From assembly GCF_019649055.1 (NCBI RefSeq), contig NW_026570234.1, positions 806,001-870,000 on the forward strand: a stretch of 64,000 bases of DNA, written 5' to 3'. Both the position numbers and the translations under genes were made by a program. The notes beneath the pieces were generated by a model. The model had not been told where the DNA came from. It worked only from the letters and a program-made list of their open reading frames with translations, and ran no database searches. Source of the DNA: Paramacrobiotus metropolitanus. Lineage: Eukaryota > Tardigrada > Eutardigrada > Parachela > Macrobiotidae. The stretch's first letter is position 1. Each line of letters begins with the position of its first letter. Shown piece after piece: positions 2,776 through 64,000 of the stretch.

Positions 2776-5700
2776 CTAAAGACTTGTTTCAAGCACCTTT
2801 TGCTCATGTTTCGGGGATAGTTTTTCTAATTCACCAGGTTCGTGGTTGGGTAGGTGACCATCCTCAGTTAACTCATCATCTGAGGAAGCTAGCGCGGTGT
2901 CCGCAATATCTGGGTAAGCTTCCTTTAGTAAATCCTGCAAAATTGTGTGTATTTAGGCTGCACACAAACGGCATTGCGTAAACGTTTTGGGAATTTATTT
3001 ACAGTAAATCGTTTCCTAACTGGGACTGATGCTAATTTTTATTTCTGTCAACTTTTTTCGATTTTACTCATTTTAGGAATAGTACTTAAATATGCTGCAC
3101 TTACGTCTGGATTCAAGCCAGCTTGTGGTGGTATACGTCCTGCATCACGAATGCGGTCAATCTTCTTTTCCCGTAATGTCTTCATTTTTTTCCGCATGAA
3201 AAATAGTGTTACAAAATCACATACGATTGTCGTCTAAAACAGAAAAAGTTTCAATAATATTGCTCGCATCCGCAGTTGGAAATGGTTTTATACACTGCCT
3301 GTAGTCATAAATATTGTACAGGTATAATTGTGCTGACCGTGAGATGGGTGCTTTTGCGACTGACCGAGTACGTATGATGGACTTCTTTGTGAATAATTAT
3401 TCACTTACCAGTCCAAGTAAGCCCACAGCGGAACCGACATTTAAGGCAAATGTTTCAGCATCGAATTTCCCAGCTTCGCTGTATACCATGAATACAAATC
3501 GTATTCCGTAAAACTTGTATAAACTCCTTTTGCGTGTCCCATCCTGGGGGTCATTCCAGTAGTCGGCATTGCGAAAACTCCAACCTTTGGCAATTTTCTC
3601 ATCTTTGGAATCCATTCTTCGGAATTCGTACTGGGGTTTACAGTGTTGCACATCCCGATCAAGATTGCATTCCCATTTGATAATAAATGCAATTATTCCG
3701 CCCTGCAGTACGTACTCAACCGGTTAATCCCGTACGTAATTATTTACTTTATATTTACTTACTAATAACATAAATAGATCATACCTACTTTCAATAGCTT
3801 TCAAAATCTATGGCTACAGAGGATAGCATTAGTTACAGGTACTGTACATACTTGTACCTAACTGGTAAGTTTTGGTAGACAAACTCTCTTTTTATTGTTT
3901 TGGTTATCAGCTAGAGCGTAATTTTAAGTTCTTATCACAACCTGAAAACCGCTTTGATACAATCAGTTTTGGTGCAATGCATGTGGATAAGTGTAAGGAT
4001 TTTTGCCTTTGTATTGTTGACTTACCGTGCTTGCAACGTCTACAAAATTTGCGCCGGCTTTTTCCACAATATATTGCACGCCAAAAATCGGACAGTACGG
4101 ATCGTTTTTCTCGTGGTACCGGCACGAAGCCAAGTCTTCTTTGCTATGGCTTTCTAAAATGTTTCTGCGGCGAACGTCGGCTTTAGGAAACACAACATAA
4201 TTTTTGACAAGAATGGTGAAATTGGCCACTTCCATGAACATGGGTGGACTAAAAGACAACAAACACAAAGTGTCAATGTATTAAAAAATTTAATACTGTA
4301 TTTTTCTGTAGCGCTATTATATTCCTTTATCATATTATGCATAACTTTCCAGGTATGTATATTCTGTGAAGTAGTGGCGGTACAGTACCATATGCGAATG
4401 CCGAAATCGGTTATTACTATATATAAGGCAGATACAGAAATATCTGCCAACATAACGCGGCAATTGTCAAATGAACGTTACCTACTCCGGTGCTTTGTCC
4501 TGTTCAGCTGGACACCACCCCTCGATTTCGCACGTTCCCGTTCCCTGAATGCATCGTCCAGTTCGAAATCCGTTTCCTAGGAGCAGCGGCTCCCCGGCAG
4601 GACAATGCGAATCAGCTGAACAGCGGGCACTCTTTAAATAAATATCCTATGAGTGAAAACATGCAGCTCTGATGGTGAGTTACTCTCTGCAATTAAGCGA
4701 TATAAATGTCTGATATCGAAATCGAAGATTTGGAGTGCAGCCGGTAAGTAGTCATTTCATAGTATCTGCCTTTCCGTTAATGATATTTGAGTACCTTTCA
4801 TCAAGATACTGTACACAATTTAATTTTTTTAACTCCGAAAATCAGATCAGGCCATCAGGGGCTGGTGGCAATGATAATATTGGCAGATCACAGAGGATAT
4901 ATATACCGACATAAATAGTGTGTTGTGGAAGCGGGAGTCGGATAATGGAAGACACAGTTATGCAAAATCAGATCGCAATTTTATTGTGCAATTTATGGCG
5001 CCGATTCTAGTTTTGCAATTCAGTTGCCCATACCTCTGGACAGCGTCCATTCCGCTGATTAGGCGTCTGGATAACGTTTGTTGCAATGAACAAGGCGTTA
5101 TTTTCCTATCGACCACATCATATTTCAATTAAGACAATTACCGGTGTGATTTAGACCAGTTATGCAGTTATGTACAGCTATTACTGTGATATAATCTTTA
5201 TCCGACACTTGAAAACTTTTAAACCGCTGGAAGGCTTCTAACCTTCAAGCGGTTACATTTACACTAAAAAAATGTCTAGGTGTCTAAAGAAACGAGATGG
5301 TTTAAATATCTGCAAGAATTATTCGAAGTGGAAACAAAGAAGATTTGCACACTTACCACCGCCGGTATCACAAGATCTGCAAAGCATCATAACGAATGTC
5401 GTCAGTATTCGGTATTTAATTATCTGGACTTCTACGGAAAACCGACTTTATGTGTTCGAATACGTAGAAGTTTGAGAAAAAAAATCTGAGCTTTGTAAAT
5501 TCGCTCGCACTCGCATTACAGAAATTCTTCATTATGATTCTGCGGCAGGCATCGCAGATCTGTATACCGGCGCGCTCTAAGCGGAAAAGCACCCGTGTTG
5601 CCGGCATCTTTCAAGTTGAGTTACCCGTACTATTGTACTGGTCGAAATCATGAACAATACTCTCCAAAATATACCGGGTTAGCAAAGCCGGATACAGGAA

Positions 5701-48684: not shown

Positions 48685-51600
48685 CTACACTATGTTACTA
48701 TACTTTAAAAAATTTAGAATACGGCTTACTCGTTCTTTCAGTGCCGTCTTCATTTCATATTCGCTCCGGGCAATCTCCAGCTGCACCTCCCGTGGCACGG
48801 TAGGCAAAATCACAGACATTCCCAATTTGGCAAAAATCAGAATATGCTGCAACAAAAATGCTTACTTTGCGCAGGGTTAATACTACTGCTTAATTCTGTT
48901 GTGGGATACAGGAATTTTAAGCGAGAGAAACCTAATGACACCTGATGACATGAATGTTGCATTTACCTCAATGACGACAAAAATCAGGATCATCTGATCA
49001 TGACCGGTATGCTTGGCATAGTCGGTTACAATCGGGTTCAAATAGACCAGAGCGAGATTCGTGACCACCGCCGCGAATCCCATCAATTCAAACGCTAGCT
49101 GCCAGGGTCCGATGGAATTGCCCGGTCGTGCAAATGGCCGCTGCATAATGTTGCACAATTTGAATCCATCTCCGCGAATTTCAACCACGTTGTTTAACAA
49201 TGCGAACAATGGGGCAACCGGAAAAGCCGATGAGAACATGAACGCATAGCCGAACTACAAAATCACAATCCCTTTGGTTAATACAGCTGTTTAAGTATCA
49301 CAAAATTGACTGAACTATTGTTACACGTTTCGGCAATTGCTTAAGCTATATTCATATTACACCAGACAATAAGCAATTTAAATATATCGATTCAGCAACA
49401 CAAGAGGTTACGATCTACATCACATGGCAGAATAAATAATTCCAACCTGGAGGAAAAGTTCCAGATAATCATCGAAAGTACCCTAGAATAAGACAAGTGA
49501 AAGCAAAAGCACACAAGAATTCCAAGGCGTTATCAATTTCGCTGCTTCAAGTAACGATAACAAACCTTGTAAATTGGCTGATCATTTTCGATAATCGCCT
49601 GATCGCGAAAGACCGTAAAATTCGCATCCTCGTTTTCGCCACGAATTTCCCGTTTTTTGTTCTCTTTTCGCAATTCACGTTGCAGCTGCCACTTCTGATA
49701 GCGCACTTTCATGAAAGGGAAAATCGTTTCAGAAAACTGATCGATGATTTGATTGGTAATAAGCTGTGTCCCAAGATGACTGCGCAGTAGATCTAAATCT
49801 TGCAACCAAAACGCGATGAAGAACAAAGAGGAAAAGGAGTTCACGAAGTTGAATAACAGCAACTTCCATATCAAATGAAATTCATAGGATGTTTGCAGGC
49901 GGTGATTCTCTTTATCGGTTAACCATGTCGCGACATATCTGCATTCACAAAAATCACAGGCCACAACCTGTGGTAAATCTTCCCAACATTTGACAACAAA
50001 AGTAATTACACACATAAGCGCGCAACCTTTACATTGTCAAAAAGCTGCAAACATAAAAAAACGGTAATATAAGTAATTTACAAATTTACCTGTATGAACC
50101 CTTGAAAATATTGACGCACACTGTGTAGATCGCACTTGGTGCAAAACGTCCAAAGAACAGGAAGAATGTCGGACGTTTTATGTACTGATCATTCAAACTG
50201 GTTTGGGCATCCAAATAACTTCCCAACATGAACAGCGACAAGAAAAGGCACAGAACAACAATTGGTGTGGATATAAAAGCGATCCAAATATAACGTGTCA
50301 TCTCGGGATAAACGGGTTCAGGAAGACCGGTAACGGGATTTTTTCCCATTGAGCCTGTAAACCACACAAAAACAAGACAATCGCTAGGTAAAATTTTGCA
50401 TTTTTCCTTACAACGTCTTTGTACCTTTGAACTGTGAACGGGGAATTTCAAGTTGCTCATTGGTTTTAAACAGTACACCCCATTTGTAGCACAAGCGATT
50501 GCAAAAGCGCTTCCAGCGTTCAAAAAAGAAGGTTGCCCATAAAAGATTAAATATGGCGAACGCCGCAACGGTCGTCAATGTTGCCTGACTGAACAACTGA
50601 ATGGTAAACATCGTCAATCCCAATATCGTCGCCGGTATCAGCATTTCTGTGTAAAATCCCAAAAATGCAAAGTAGATGGCTATATGCTCGCCAAAGTAAT
50701 CGCGAACGGCATCTAAAAAAAAACCGAAAAAACGGCATCTAAAAAAAACCGAAATTATATCAAAAGCGAAAGTCCGAAAAAAATAATTTCCGACTTTAGA
50801 ATTTCGTACGGTTGTATCTAACACGAAACGTAACACCGGCACCACAATAAGCCATACTGAACATTAAATAAATGAAAAACCGGGGGAAATTTTAACTCAC
50901 CAAGCGGCTGCTTTCGAGACAATTTCTTCCCAACCCATCCGGCAAAAAGCCGCTTCCTTAGTTCTTTCTCGTGCAAAGGGAAGATCTTCAATATCACATC
51001 TTTTCTCTGCATTTTTGTAACTAAAAGCACACACTCCTTATTGTTAACGCAGAGCAAATACTGCTATTTTGTGCCTTGCTAAGCAAGGCACAAAATCAGA
51101 AAACTGTCTGGCCATTTTCTTACTGATACTCTGTCCTTCACTAAAGCGCAGTTTATCCGACTCAAAAAACTTCTCCATTTCTTCGGCTTTGGCGCGCAGC
51201 TCATTGATCTCGAAATTAACGAATCGGGCTTTTTCAGAATACGTAAATAAATTCCCAGGATCTTCATCTATAAAAGGCAAAATAAATAAAAAATTAAATT
51301 AATACACCTGAACCAAATCAACAATAACTAAAGCAATATAAAGTGGATATCGAAATGTGACAAATGCATAATAATGATATATCGTGACAATGCACACTGA
51401 CATTGTGAACGTCATGGAAATTATTCATGCACCTACCCTCAGGCACAAACGACGACAGGGATGCAATGCTGAATTCCTTCATAGTCCCATCTTTCGCATC
51501 GGGTTTCATCACTTCCAGCCACTCCGCGAGTTCCAGTACGCGGTACGTGGGAGCACAAATGTGCAGAAATGCATACTACAGTGTACATACACGATCATAA

Positions 51601-54144: not shown

Positions 54145-54564
54145 TTACGTCTCCGAAGCTTTCGCTTGTTCCGTGGCATTCGTACCTTGGAGCATACTAT
54201 TCCTTTGCCGCGTATAATGCTGCCAAAAGAGTACCATCTGATCATCGATATACCTAGCACACTGTGGATTCGTCAGCTCTTTGCGGAAAGACTCGTGCTG
54301 GAGAAGATCGAGCATAAACAGGCAATTCGGATACTTTATGAAGGCTAAATATTCCGGTTTCTTCCAGTACTGCAGATAATTAAGGTAATTGATGAAACTT
54401 TTATCTCGAAGATATCCACGTTGAGCGAGAAAATTCAAATAATTTGGATTAGCCAGGCACTGGACAAATTCCAGCTCCGCTTGAAAGCGAGTTTTCTCTG
54501 AGTTTTCTGGAAGACTGGATCCAAGATTCAGCGAGTCTCCTACCGTAAGGCGAGAAAGCGACAT
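54145..54564 (-). CDS. MED31: Mediator complex subunit 31
   Basis: An intronless frame of 139 residues (human 131). MED31 (Soh1) is in the middle module of Mediator and binds MED7. The core is highly conserved: RFQAELEFVQCLANPNYLNF, AQRGYLRDKSFINYLNYLQY, WKKPEYLAFIKYPNCL, DLLQHESFRKEL and IDDQMVLFWQHYTRQR. The ATG at 54564 gives MSLSRLTVGDSLNLG ahead of the core. The C-terminal tail is short and polar. Confidence 0.97.
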   Translation of the reverse strand: MSLSRLTVGDSLNLGSSLPENSEKTRFQAELEFVQCLANPNYLNFLAQRGYLRDKSFINYLNYLQYWKKPEYLAFIKYPNCLFMLDLLQHESFRKELTNPQCARYIDDQMVLFWQHYTRQRNSMLQGTNATEQAKASET

Positions 54565-56063
54565 GTCGAGGCCGAGTGTTCTTTATTTATTATATGCTAA
54601 ACAAATGAAAAGTGTGCTACAATCAAGAGCGCGAGAACGTAGTAATAATTAATAAAAAAGAGCATAGAATAGAAGCTCTAGATCTGCAAGCACCAAGCTC
54701 ACTTCTTTTCAGCAAACTGCACCGAACGAATGAATGCAAGCGATGAAAATGAAAGAAAAACATTGACGTAGTCAGAGTGCGGTGCGCTTTGTGCAGCACG
54801 TGCGGTAGCGGATCACTAATATAGCAACACCGCTCCAAAAGCGTGTTTTCGATTAAACTTGATCTTTTTATCCGAAAAATCAATTTACAGGTAAGACAAG
54901 CATAGCAAAATTATCGATTTTTGTTCGCACTGTGAGACCGCAAAAATTCTGTATGTGACAGCTGATTGTAACGGACTACGATAGCCTTTAAACAATTTGG
55001 ATTTGTCCAATATAGTATGTACATATATGTACATTATAAATCACTAGGGGCTTTGCGTTGCAACTTGTATGTCACATAAGTTAGCACCCGTCTATATAAG
55101 TAAGACTTCCGGCCGTCGAAATTGGTTTGTGCGTATGGCTTAAAACGAGCTGGTGTGCGGCACGCGTGTAGATGTGACCAGCTCGCTCATAAACACATAA
55201 GTAGCCGACCTGACTGCCAGTCAATCCCCAAAACTTGCAGCACGCTTCTTTCGTTTGCCTCTCAACAGAACTTCCCAATCGATATATCAAAAGATAGAGA
55301 ATTAATTTTCAAACTTTTTGGTATATAGCAAGTGGAAATCTATGGCAAATCAAGAAAGTTATGGCTGTTTTGGTTTCTCGTAAACAAAGCATAGGCCCGT
55401 GTGAGGAGGCGTTGCTTGCATCCTATGCTAAGAGAACTCCGCCATAACTTCCCTATGATAGTGTATGTGAAAAAAAAAAACTCTATCTTTGATGATCGAT
55501 TGAAGTTCTGTTGAGAAATAAACGAAAGACGAGCGTTTGAAATTTCGAGATCCACTGGCAGTTCGATCAGTTTCGTGTATGTATGCATGCTAGGGGGTGG
55601 AGTTACATACATACGCGTAAGGCTCTTACGAGTATGCATTTTTGGCACCGCCCTCACCCAAGCGCAGATCTAATTTGCGCGGCAGCGAATCGCCGCATTG
55701 TGGGTTCGGCCATGGCGTAACTTCTATTGATGGGTCCTTAGTTGTGTAGCATACAAGTAGCAACGCAAAGCCCGGACTAAAAAATTATACAGATGTAACA
55801 GTTTATGTTGTACAGCAGCCCGACTTTTCTTGCGCTTGTATAGATTTTCTTTTATATAGTAATTTAATATTTTCTGTTTACCAGACGCTTTTCTACTTTT
55901 GGTTTCAATTTTGAACTCTGTTGTAGTGTCAAAGCACTGCACTCTGTACAATTAAAACGTTACCATTTACCGAACAATCTAAAAAGTTTGGCGGATAAAT
56001 GCGATAATACCAAAAAAGCCGACTGCTTTACCTTTTTCTCTCTTGGTGAATAGCTAAATCAAA
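54565..56063. other. Spacer MED31 / nuclear receptor with hairpin
   Basis: About 1.5 kb with no recognised exon. It contains the long imperfect inverted repeat at 55213-55562. It should also hold the promoters of MED31 (-) and the nuclear receptor (+). Confidence 0.5.
55213..55562. repeat. 350-bp imperfect inverted repeat (hairpin)
   Basis: The left arm (from 55213, ACTGCCAG) and the right arm (to 55562) are diverged reverse complements along most of their length. Matching blocks include CTCAACAGAACTT and CAATCGAT, the AAAGATAG region, AGTTATGGC and AGCATAGG. They enclose a loop of about 26 bp near 55396-55421. If transcribed it would fold into a long imperfect hairpin. It is non-coding. Confidence 0.65.
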
Positions 56064-58817
56064 ATGTTCCCGAACGACGATGGCGCAAAAGTTTTACCAA
56101 AATGTCGGATTTGCGGTGCGAAATCCACAGGGATTCATTATGGTGTGATCAGCTGCGAGGGGTGTAAGGTAAGGTGGTGCTATTGTATACCTACTCGTAG
56201 TTCAAATGGTAAGACAAGCATACTCCAAATAAGTGCTTTAAGTACTTATACTCGAAAATCGTAATTAACGTAATTATTATACATACAGAGTACATTACAT
56301 TTTATCCGTTAAATTTATCAAGATTTACCCATACTTTTGACTTAGATTTCTTACAAAACCATATTTTCTGCTTGTAATTTGTAAACGCATTGTACCAAGT
56401 GTATCTGCTAACGATAAATTATGCAGCTGGCGCGGGCCAAATTTTTGGATAACATCAAAGCTTCTGTAAAAGATTACAGTAACTTTTACGCCTTACAGAC
56501 TGTACGAGTCTTGTGGAAATTATACGGGGTTTATAAGTATGCCTCATATTTTGAGCAAGCAGCAGTATACCTCATATTTTGAGAAATGCATGTCCGGTCT
56601 GGTTCGAACGTTCGAACTTTACGCGACTTTCGTTTCCTTCTGTGCTTGTATTTTCATTAATTAAATTTGAGCGGTACTTATTGTGGCGTTACTGGCGTAT
56701 ACAGTACAAGGCTAAGTACAGTATTCCCCGAAACACTGCTATTCAATGCAACATTTTCTCCTAGGCATTTTTTAAACGAGAGTCTGTTAAAAGCACGAAA
56801 TATGTGTGCTATTTTGGAAATGCTTGTCCTGTTGGTTCGGTGGCGCGAGGAAGATGTCGAGCCTGTCGCTACAGGAAATGTTTGCAAGAAGGAATGGTCA
56901 ATTTCAACAGTCCTAATGCCATCGTCGGTACGTGGAAAATCGCATTGTTAGCGCGGCAGCGATTGTATAGCAAAAGTAAACTTACCTTAGCCACTGTAGC
57001 ACACACCTTTGCAAGATTGCATGTCTAATGCGAGTAATGTTGTTACATTGTGTGACAGGATCTGCAAAATGCACATCGAAGTTTTCCGGCAGAGAAAAAT
57101 CGCGAAACTGGAATTCAGCTACAACTGCTTTTGATTACGCTGTATCGAAGCCGAGTGCAGTTGTTAAAGGTTATTTTGTATACTGCATGAATGCATGAGC
57201 GCCTTTAAATTTCCGAACTTGGATTTAATTTTTTTAGATCTGCTTCCGCGAGTCGACATATTTCGTTTTATTCAATCGGACACAAGCGAAAAATCTGAAC
57301 AAAGGTCAGCCATTGCATATGACCGGTCACTTCTGTTCTGTAAAGACATCGGCCCAGAAAGCCTCCATAAAATACAACTTTACGATAAATTTCCTGGTTT
57401 CCGAATCAAAATCAACCTTGACGAGATACAAACAGCGCCATACCGCGCTGACTTTCAAGCCGATTTTCTGCACGGCTCCGAAGAGAGCCTGAACATCGAT
57501 ACCACCATCCGATCAGTAACCAATGCATTTTGTCGCTCTTATATGGATCAAATCGATCTTTGGACGGAGTACGCCCGGAGAACCTTGATTCTGTGCGAAG
57601 TTCCGGTAAATCTATATATACATAGACAGTCGATACTGCGGCAAAGCGAGTATTAACAGAATGGCTGGCGTATTTTAATATACCGTAATATTTCATATTA
57701 CGGTATATTAAAATAATTAAAAATGATGTTCCTGTGTATAGTGTGTACAGGGGGAACCATCGCAACTTTTTTATCGTATATATATAATTACTTTTCCTAA
57801 ACACCGTGGCATCTATATGATATATATCTTATATTCCACTTCATTATTCCTTTTTTCGCTACTTATTAGAATCAACCGGAAACTACCCTGCCCATGATGA
57901 TACATGCGCTGAAGCATGAGTTTCAGGGGGATGCAGTGCGTGCCGATGATTTCACCAAAAGCCTCCCCGGTTTCACGAAACTGAGCCATAAACACCGAAC
58001 GCAAATCGTCCTTGAACGCTCTTTTGATTTCTTTCTGGTAAAAAACTAAAACAGTTTACATTGTAATTCACTTATGCAGCTTGAAAAAGGTAAAAGCGGA
58101 CAGGTGTACTTTGATTTTACATTGTAAAAGTATACTATGGTTTGCTCATGATGAAATCTAAAGCTTTTGTCGGTGAACAAAATATACCACGCGCCACTTT
58201 GCATGTCAATAGCTTTTCTGACAGATTAACCATGCGGCGTACATGCAAAAAGAGGATTACTACTGGTGTGTGGGCCCACATGGATTCCATTTTAACAAAT
58301 ACTGGATGAAACAATTAGTCAATCAGGACTGGATCAATTTCATTGAATTAGCCGCATCTGAATTCAACAAACTGCACCTGACTATGACGGAACGCTACTT
58401 GTTTCTATCAGCAATTATTCTCCGTGCCGGTAAGGTGACCGTGCGCCATATAATTATTTTGTAGGAAAGCACAGGAGCGGATGGTAATTGACAGACGCAA
58501 TTGTAGGCACCATATCCGTTGAGAATAAACTGAAAATGTCCTTTATCCACGCTCATTACTTGGATGCCCTGCTTTCGTCAGTCCGCCGACGCCTGTCACC
58601 ATCTGACCTTAGCCAGCTATTTCCGCGTCTCCGGCAGGTAATGGGCCGGATTATCAGTGTGGCCAACATGGATAGCAGTTATTACCTCGCCTTGGATCTC
58701 AGCTCCATTCCCTTCGATCGCAATCGGGATATCCGGCAGTTTATGCTGGAGGATAACCCCGAGAATGTCTTTATTGCTCATTGGTTGAATTCGTCCATTG
58801 AGGAAATCGCAGATTAA
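56064..58817 (+). CDS. Nuclear hormone receptor
   Basis: Seven exons join in phase: 56064-56168, 56765-56927, 57059-57169, 57238-57605, 57870-58037, 58225-58429 and 58495-58817. They give 480 residues. The DNA-binding domain starts almost at the N-terminus: [20 protein letters not shown], the recognition helix CEGCKAFFKRES, then CYFGNAC and [17 protein letters not shown]. The ligand-binding domain shows the helix 3-5 signature ([20 protein letters not shown]) and later helices ([20 protein letters not shown]). The P-box EGCKA differs from the common EGCKG. No clear AF-2 activation helix is seen at the C-terminus (SSIEEIAD). The third exon reads as a Ser/Lys-rich hinge in the phase set by both neighbours. 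Another frame also looks helical, so this exon is the least sure. An AATAAA is at 59026-59031. I cannot assign an NR subfamily. Confidence 0.88.
57671..57715. repeat. Perfect 21-bp palindrome with 3-nt loop
   Basis: The arms 57671-57691 and 57695-57715 are exact reverse complements (TATTTTAATATACCGTAATA plus T). The palindrome lies in the fourth intron of the nuclear receptor gene. Confidence 0.85.
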
Positions 58818-60631: not shown

Positions 60632-61135
60632 CTACGTCCCTTATTAGGATATGATGATCGGCTTCAGAAATAACGATAAGAACGAAGAAACTGTTCTCGG
60701 TTAACCGGCTGTTCTGATCGCATTCACAATGATGATTCACAATTTCGTATTAACGTTTTCTCACAATTTTTTTGAGGACTTGTCAAAATTTTAATTTGCT
60801 CTTTTGGATACATATTTGTTTGTTTTCTGTGTTTTGCTTTTCATCAATTTTGATGTCCTCCAGACGCATACGTTTCAGATAAAGACAACTCAGCACCAGT
60901 AAATCGGGTTTCCATCCCTTCATAGACACCTGTTTTTGTGTTAGTAGCGTAACGAAGCCACACAACCAAAATAACACAGTAGTTAATGGAAAACCTTAAT
61001 TAAAGCATTCATATGCCGTCCAGGGCTCTCTTTATCGCAGTACTGTAGTTCCATATTTTGTTTAAGTAGTTCACCATGTTTTCTGTGGTCAGCTACAGCT
61101 ACCGTAATAAGCGGAAGAGTTAAAGAAAAAATGCA
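60632..61135. other. Convergent spacer before the glutamate receptor
   Basis: About 0.5 kb between converging stop codons of the 101-residue protein gene (+) and the glutamate receptor (-). No gene recognised. Confidence 0.4.
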
Positions 61136-64000
61136 TCACATTAAGTATTTTCCTTTACTGAGCGGCACCGAGGTTGACCGTGACAGATCGTAGTTATTTG
61201 GATTTTCCAGTGTTTCATGCGAAGGTCTCACCACCGGCTTTTTGGATGACCCGTGCAATCGCACCGCAAAACATAAAGCCCGGCTCATCTCCGTTCCGAT
61301 AGGGTCCTGTAAACAAGCAACCGCAAACTTTAACCACAGATTATGCCACACCGTCCAAAATTTTATAAAATCAAAGACAACTGAAAAACTAAAATCAAAC
61401 GAACAACACCAATATGATTGTGAGTAAACTTCTTACGCGATAATGCATCGATGTTTTTCTGGCTTTCCAAACGAACTCCAAGATGGCCACGGCAAATGAC
61501 AAAATAAGCCCAGCTATCAAAATGACAAACACGCCACCGACATTGGCTAATCCCAGTTCGCTGGCTTGATCCTGTGGTTTGGAGATGCTGTCACACGAGG
61601 ACGAATTGTTCTTCTTCCACCAGTTTTCTTTCAATTTATGCAGCACACTGTTTTCTTGCAGTTTTAATATTGCTTTGGAAATTTCGTCCCGGTATGGTGA
61701 GTCTAGCAAAAACAACGAAGCATAATCAATGCAACAAACTCTAATTCATCACAACATTACATAAATATCTGCTCACTTTGCGGTGTGGCAATACCAAATC
61801 CTTTGGAGTCCAGCAAATTGCCAATTTGCGTTAAATCACAGTCCTTGGACATTTCGTATTCCAGGGATGGTGATTCCATCAAATAGGCGTATTTATCGTT
61901 TTTCACTCTTGCCACACCAGCTGCGCCTTTCTTAACAAAGTTGGACGGATCGGCGCTCATGGCATCCCACATGCGCTTGTATACGGGAAGTTTTGAGTCT
62001 TTGAAAAAGTTATACGTCGCTCCACCGTGGTAGCAGCCATAACGGATGAGATTCTGCTTTGACAAATCATCCGCGCTCTCAATGGGCAACTTCATGCGTT
62101 CCACTGTTAGGAAAGCAGCCAAATTGGCTGTGTAGCTGCTAATCATAATCTGCAAAACATAGTTTATTATAAATCGTGCTGAATAACAGTAGTGGCAAAA
62201 TGGTAAGTAATAGACTGCATAAAAGCCCAAAGGTCATCCCTACAACGAAATATTGCGAAGTATACACAACCAGTATTCAGGAACAACATTATGGAACAAT
62301 AACAGCTACGATTAAAATACAGTTTGTAATATAAACAGTTAATGTGAATTCTCATATTTGCTCAAATAGGCAAAAAATGTGTAGACGCAGCGCCGGAATA
62401 CGGGTGAGTAAATAAGCAGCAAAATGGTTGGCACTAACCAGCGTAAAAAACCACCAACATCCGGCCGCTACTCTAGTAGAAACAGCCCTCGGAGCAATAT
62501 CGGATCCTTGCTGCATTAACGATCCGATGGTAAACCACAGTGAATTACATATGGTGAACTGATTCTCCACAACGTCTCCTTCCTCGTTGCACGGATGTGG
62601 ATTGTACCATTCGTAAGGCGAAAAGCGGGCTAACACGAAGATCGTCAAGGATACGATAACATATGCTGTCACCTGTCAACATCAATTGCCACTCATGCTA
62701 TAAGATAACAACAATATTCTGGATGCAATGCAAAAGTCCGCAGTGAGCACGTAGTATAGCTCATAATGCTAACATTACCAACATAAACCGATAAAATTAA
62801 TAAGCGTACATTAACGCATTGAACGACTGTGTCCTTCAAAATATTTGACTTTATTGGCAGCCTCGTTAACTTAAATATAATACTAGTAATGCTGTGTGTG
62901 AATAACGGTATGCTGAATAACACTAAACAATGTGATAAAGTGCACTACTCCGGTTTTTGTTTCTATCCGATTAACCATCATCCATCGAGTCAGGAACAAG
63001 AGAACGCATTTCATCGTTATAGCACAGTTGAAACAAGAAACATACTGTCCACATACACGAATTTAATTTATAAATGGCGTGTTTTTGAGCGGTGCAGAAT
63101 TACACCATTCAAAAACATTGTTGTACTGTTACTGTTAAGCAACATAAAATAATACGTATATGATTCAACATTTCGTACTTCGTATTTATCCGTGCCGACT
63201 CTCGTCTCGTGGTCACTTTTCCACATCACATACGGGTCTTCCCTTATGGTTATTGCTCTTAAAGTTTTATTCCTCATGGATGATGAGATCTGAGCATAAT
63301 GATCCGTATAATTCCATGTAATAACCGCACCATCGCGCGGATTCCAACGCCCTACCTAATTTCGAGAAGACAAACTGATTAACCAAAACCACATTCAGCA
63401 ACTACTCTGTAATTAGATATTTTTCAGCATTTCCAGTTTCAAAACTACACCTATTCCAATATCCAAGCCGCCTCCACATATTTATTAAATGGTAGCATTC
63501 AACAGAATGATGTGACATGGGAACCAAAATAACGTACTTCCTGGTAGCCTCTCGACAATAGTTGCACAATGTCCAGCTTAAAATCAGTGCGGCTGCGATT
63601 TTCGTTGAATTTGATCATTCCCGATAGCCCTTTGACTTGTGTCGCTGCCAGGGCATTCACGAAATCGCGACCACGGGACCAGGCCTGTTCGTTGTCGCAG
63701 TTAACGGGCACCGTGGCGAGATCAGCCACTTCCGGACGGGTTAAGGCTTTGGCCAATAGTAGCATGGAATCGTAGAACAGGGCTTGATCAGTCTATTGCG
63801 AAAGCCGGCAATTACGACAGCGAAAGGCATATTAACACATGACGTCAATAAAAAATATTGCAAAGCAGTACATAAGCTTGAGAAATTTTATTTTCGGTAA
63901 TTTATCTTTTATAATTAGGTGAGTAAAGCCGTAAAATTGCAGCACTTTGAAACTTACTGTTACAACCAAATTGCTGGGCACCGTGCCAACGGATCCCGGT
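61136..64000 (-). CDS. Kainate-type ionotropic glutamate receptor, 5' partial, S1 segment missing
   Basis: Exons on the minus strand: 63958-64000 (cut by the window edge), 63538-63792, 63179-63355, 62439-62672, 61777-62149, 61437-61702 and 61136-61306. All keep phase. Seen in order: the end of the amino-terminal domain ([20 protein letters not shown]) and the start of S1 ([16 protein letters not shown]). Then come M1 ([20 protein letters not shown]), the pore loop ([20 protein letters not shown]) with Gln at the Q/R site, and M3 ([16 protein letters not shown]). S2 follows ([28 protein letters not shown]), then M4 ([20 protein letters not shown]) and a tail of about 57 residues. These match GluK-type subunits. 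Between TDKYE and VTAYV the family normally has about 110 residues of S1, including the glutamate-binding Arg. No such exon exists in 62673-63178. Confidence 0.9.

Follow-up and report, generated by a model that had tools for sequence, protein, structure and literature searches.

Does an ionotropic glutamate receptor (iGluR) gene in which coding for the second part of the S1 ligand-binding segment seems to be missing encode a subunit that works without glutamate, or is it an ordinary gene that has lost an exon? This question is raised by the minus strand of positions 63999-61136 of the window (the whole stretch of 64,000 nucleotides analysed here), which carries the 3' part of a kainate-type iGluR gene in seven exons (Table 1). 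The gene continues beyond position 64000, so that most of its amino-terminal domain lies outside the window.

Table 1. Exons of the kainate-type receptor gene and the interval between exons 3 and 4 (positions within the window).
Feature	Positions	Strand	Content
Exon 1 (as seen)	63958..63999	-	Late amino-terminal domain (…NLVVT); extends past the window edge, with the 5' part of the gene beyond it
Exon 2	63538..63792	-	Amino-terminal domain (TDQALFYD…GYQE); Pfam PF01094, E 9.4e-11
Exon 3	63179..63355	-	End of amino-terminal domain and first part of S1 (VGRWN…TDKYE)
Interval, reads as one intron	62673..63178	-	506 bp; expected site of the second part of S1 (GluK2 461-567)
Exon 4	62439..62672	-	Rest of M1, pore loop with LMQQG, to WWFFTL before M3
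Exon 5	61777..62149	-	M3 (SYTANLAAF) and S2 lobe with equivalents of A689, T690 and E738
Exon 6	61437..61702	-	End of S2 and M4 (M4 by eye); PF00060 match extends into this exon
Exon 7	61136..61306	-	C-terminal tail, stop codon TGA

The joined exons read through 505 codons to a single terminal stop, with neither internal stop codons nor frameshifts, and the exons flanking the gap are indeed as intact as the preliminary description had reported. All six introns are of the GT-AG type; the intron that separates exons 5 and 6 is in phase 1 and the other five are in phase 0. The exon 1 donor reads ACA/GTAAGT, and the junction between exons 1 and 2 (VVT/TDQAL) resembles its GluK2 counterpart, FMT/TDAAL. 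The exon 3 donor, GAA/GTACGAAA, directly follows TDKYE, and exon 4 begins with VTAYV, preceded by TTGACAG. The coordinates, junction residues and phases previously given for the gap (62673-63178, 506 bp, phase 0 on both sides) were reproduced exactly, as were the conserved splice sites and the possibility of an in-frame direct splice from TDKYE to VTAYV: the gap is bounded by GT and AG and its removal keeps the frame. At 506 bp it exceeds the other five introns (74-289 bp) in length. Its acceptor is the poorest in pyrimidines (7 of 17 positions versus 9-13 in the others), which hints at most weakly at an assembly fault or a young deletion. If this intron were retained, translation would proceed for 36 residues beyond TDKYE and then meet a stop codon ending at 63068.

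Several comparisons place the gene among the kainate-type receptors. The best PDB match of exons 2-3 was a GluK3 chain (7vm2_A, E 1.9e-20), and the matches of exons 4-5 were led by a chain named 'Glutamate receptor' (E 3.1e-81) and by GluK2 (E 3.3e-81). Among the best 60 of 336 PDB matches for exons 4-5, in which NMDA chains were absent, GluK2 reached 275 bits, versus at most 234 bits for any AMPA chain, so that the sequence is nearer to GluK than to AMPA subunits. Over the same M1-S2 block, GluK2 itself scores 296 bits with GluK5 and up to 253 bits with AMPA subunits (best 60 matches). Since 275 bits falls among these values, the M1-S2 block of the present gene is, as judged from these scores, conserved within the range of working receptors. 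Exon 4 is identical to GluK2 at 51 of 78 positions (65%), exon 5 at 70 of 123 aligned positions (57%) and the S2 lobe at 53 of 105. The channel pore is well represented (Pfam Lig_chan PF00060, E 4.8e-48, profile positions 9-146 of 146, including the M3 motif SYTANLAAF), and so is the end of the amino-terminal domain (ANF_receptor PF01094, profile positions 273-350 of 353, with the remainder outside the window). The joined protein matched only these two Pfam families, and no S1 domain family. In S2, the equivalents of A689, T690 and E738, the S2 glutamate contacts of GluK2, are kept in the aligned segments GATYNFF and LMESPSLE. The pore loop (62505-62519, minus strand) reads LMQQG, i.e., a genomic glutamine as in the aligned GluK2 chains, at the Q/R editing site. 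A pattern search for relatives with exons 4 and 5 gave 3 matches in viral_contigs and 15 in genome_contigs, of which none was confirmed.

The extent of the missing part was delimited by alignment with GluK2, using a sequence that matches PDB chain 9c5y_A over 140 of 140 residues. TDKYE at the end of exon 3 aligns with NDRFE (residues 456-460) and VTAYV at the start of exon 4 with LLAYL (568-572), VT falling on L568-L569. The stretch without coding therefore corresponds to GluK2 461-567, that is, 107 residues or about 321 bp between two phase-0 introns; the absence reported in the preliminary description stands, its estimate of about 110 residues becoming 107 by this alignment. The claim that the missing part comprises the arginine that binds the glutamate carboxylate and the pre-M1 linker also holds, R523 lying within GluK2 461-567. 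Together with R523, the stretch contains Y488, P516 and A518 (residue identities checked at these numbers), the S1 glutamate contacts of GluK2; no coding for a complete S1 with these four residues was found in the searched window. Besides the linker, the most hydrophobic 21-residue window of M1 loses six residues: the best 21-residue hydropathy at M1 drops from 2.09 to 1.30 in a direct splice of exon 3 to exon 4, and the joined product retains a 17-residue hydrophobic run with a mean hydropathy of 2.04.

Neither strand of the 64 kb yielded coding for the second half of S1. Tblastn with short words and the 109-residue stretch alone as query gave best E values over the 64 kb of 1.8 (GluK2) and 0.30 (GluA2), neither of them in the gap, and with longer queries reaching into exon 4 only exon 4 itself appeared below E 0.2. 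A phmmer --max search of the 3226 stop-free frames of at least 12 codons was likewise negative in the gap, its best E values being 5.6 for GluK2 and 0.77 for GluA2, the latter far away at 988-1152. When the gap was aligned in a frameshift-tolerant manner, the scores were 27 (minus strand) and 29 (plus strand) for GluK2 and 25 and 27 for GluA2, versus 27.2 ± 4.3 (maximum 41) for the GluK2 query on 100 dinucleotide shuffles of the minus-strand gap. The power of this alignment was gauged on exon 5 (57% identical to GluK2), of which 12 copies were decayed at random at each level. The scores averaged 120 (minimum 74) at 20% decay, 60 (minimum 41) at 30%, 36 (minimum 26) at 40% and 27 at 50%, to be compared with the null maximum of 41; the method thus detects decay up to about 30%, is weak at 40% and blind at 50%, and its model does not include several tiny exons. 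Pfam found no family in four frames of the gap (a 109-codon frame on the plus strand and three on the minus strand). The earlier statement that the 506-bp gap holds no S1 exon was borne out by all four kinds of search. A hidden or decayed exon in the gap was accordingly rejected on the tblastn, phmmer --max and frameshift-tolerant results, and an inverted exon on the negative searches of both strands.

The composition of the gap agrees with this picture. Its G+C content is 0.350, versus 0.325-0.356 for the other five introns and 0.44-0.57 for the exons, and even its richest 327-nt stretch reaches only 0.367, so that by composition the gap reads as intron throughout. The 109-codon stop-free frame, at 62823-63152 on the plus strand, is antisense to the gene and lies within the gap; when the mononucleotides of the gap were shuffled 1000 times, a run at least as long appeared in any of the six frames in 9 cases. 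This frame, picked out after the fact, is probably due to chance.

We looked around the gap for signs of how a segment might have disappeared. Repeat collapse and a transposon scar were both rejected by repeat and similarity scans: positions 61100-64000 contain no inverted repeats of at least 16 nt and a single weak direct repeat, located outside the gap; no tandem repeats were found in 62400-63400; and the best similarity of the gap to the rest of the window had an E value of 0.32. The window contains no N characters. A Pfam scan of 10 neighbouring segments, a partial check of the window, recovered a family in 8 of them, with nearly continuous profiles. No mark of an assembly fault was therefore seen in these respects (no N, no repeat at the gap, the checked neighbouring genes nearly continuous).

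The neighbourhood includes an anoctamin (TMEM16) gene with several exons on the minus strand (48886-50863; PF04547, profile positions 1-316 and 336-450 of 460) and a Med31 mediator subunit in one open frame (54145-54582, minus strand; PF05669, E 4.9e-40, profile positions 1-94 of 95). On the plus strand, a nuclear receptor spans 56058-58817, with a C4 zinc finger exon at 56765-57028 (PF00105, profile positions 25-69 of 70, E 2.6e-11); by eye, a first finger lies at 56058 and ligand-domain-like exons extend to 58817, the last frame matching no Pfam family at E 0.01. Exons of a P2X ATP-gated channel occupy 3400-4280 on the minus strand (PF00864, E 7.9e-34 and 7.9e-22, profile positions 163-336 of 361). 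According to an excerpt of PMC2633282, a tardigrade P2X receptor has been described and the family is absent from Drosophila and C. elegans. The genes seen (kainate receptor, nuclear receptor zinc finger, P2X) suggest animal DNA; the P2X gene speaks against a gene set like that of a fly or nematode and, as a guess, would suit a tardigrade. Rfam and tRNA scans of the window gave no matches.

How, then, did the second half of S1 come to be absent? The explanation that we favour, and regard as likely, is that this is an ordinary kainate-type gene whose S1 second-half exon or exons have been lost recently. Such a loss may have occurred in either of two ways, which we consider about equally likely: the assembly, or the haplotype that was assembled, would omit the exon, or a young genomic deletion would have broken this copy of the gene. 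We favour a recent loss because the S2 glutamate contacts and the similarity of S2 to GluK2 have been kept; had S1 disappeared long ago, one would hardly expect the S2 half of the pocket to persist. The full gene would hence probably have had an ordinary S1 and bound glutamate until recently. The intact, constrained rest of the gene points in the same direction, toward a fault or a young deletion. Against it, the GT-AG pair at the two gap ends and the kept frame are what a real lost exon would leave.

The age of the loss can also be approached through the absence of further lesions, as the missing exon is the only one seen and the 505 codons show neither stops nor frameshifts. For a neutral sequence at 2% divergence, the chance of finding no stop or frameshift in 505 codons would be 0.02-0.03, assuming that indels are a tenth of substitutions, so that any loss of function is probably recent; for stops alone the chance of none is 0.22-0.32, which supports recency only weakly. 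The lack of internal stops and frameshifts suggests that any pseudogene of this gene is young. An old pseudogene or long-established non-functional relic would account for the loss of an essential stretch, but, with the reading frame unbroken, all six GT-AG pairs in place and the S2 ligand contacts kept, we hold it to be extremely unlikely.

Coding for the missing part might instead have escaped recognition or lie elsewhere, being strongly diverged, split into tiny exons within the gap, located outside the window or trans-spliced. The length of the gap, greater than that of any other intron here, would suit such an exon, the searches span 64 kb, and the frameshift-tolerant alignment loses its power at 40-50% decay. 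However, exons 4 and 5 are so similar to GluK2 that divergence of this one part of S1 to the point of invisibility would be odd, and the window-wide searches on both strands were negative, with an intron-like G+C content all along the gap; we therefore think this explanation unlikely. Less credible, and in our view very unlikely, is a maintained subunit lacking the second part of S1 and working without glutamate binding, for example as a heteromer partner or a dominant-negative brake. The phase-0 junction of exons 3 and 4, the intact state of the other exons seen, of SYTANLAAF and of the pore loop, and the hydrophobic run left in the joined product speak for such a subunit. Yet the S2 glutamate contacts persist, for which it would have little reason, and both M1 and the pre-M1 linker are cut; moreover, no iGluR of such a build turned up in the titles or abstract openings among the matches listed, a thin test. 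The excerpt of PMC6307864 makes no mention of receptors without S1. The chances are just as slim for its more specific form, a kainate-family subunit under selection that has lost much of lobe D1, gates or blocks heteromers and uses S2 only as a mechanical linker. Of the three options raised in the preliminary description, a real receptor unable to bind glutamate in the usual way is thus spoken against by the kept S2 contacts and the shortened M1, and the other two, a pseudogene and an assembly deletion, are not separated by these data.

A protein spliced from TDKYE to VTAYV would miss a large share of lobe D1 as well as some of M1. We would not expect it to function as a channel gated by glutamate; at most, it might be retained in the endoplasmic reticulum or spoil a heteromer. 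Point mutations with impaired ligand binding are enough to lower the surface expression of GluK2 and GluK3 homomers, and GluK2 mutants that reach the surface with the help of GluK5 do not function either (excerpt of PMC6420462). By analogy, a subunit deprived of much of D1 and with a shortened M1 should fare worse than those point mutants.

If the exon were truly absent from a maintained gene, it would encode an iGluR subunit that has no glutamate pocket and that would test the extent to which the channel requires the clamshell. Under recent loss, which we prefer, the locus is probably an ordinary receptor gene in incomplete form, and its likely practical use is as a marker of an assembly or allele defect, the product of which should not be annotated as a full receptor. 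It shares with GluK1, GluK2 and GluK3 (GRIK) the domain order, M3, the LMQQG pore loop and the S2 contacts A689, T690 and E738, and in the PDB it matches best to GluK chains and to others labelled just 'Glutamate receptor'; it differs from them in that the counterpart of residues 461-567 is without coding. The chemosensory IRs belong to the same channel superfamily and have ligand-binding domains without one or more of the glutamate contacts, according to an excerpt of PMC2924276. However, in those receptors the contact residues are altered within a diverged pocket of the S1-S2 domain, whereas the present gene retains the S2 contacts and its S1 is partly absent instead of diverged. A further parallel is the skipping of exon 9 in GRIK4, by which splicing removes 54 residues of the amino-terminal domain (excerpt of PMC8257547). 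In both cases one exon is lost in frame from a kainate subunit transcript, but in GRIK4 this happens by splicing and affects the amino-terminal domain, whereas in the present gene the exon itself is absent and the ligand-binding domain is affected.
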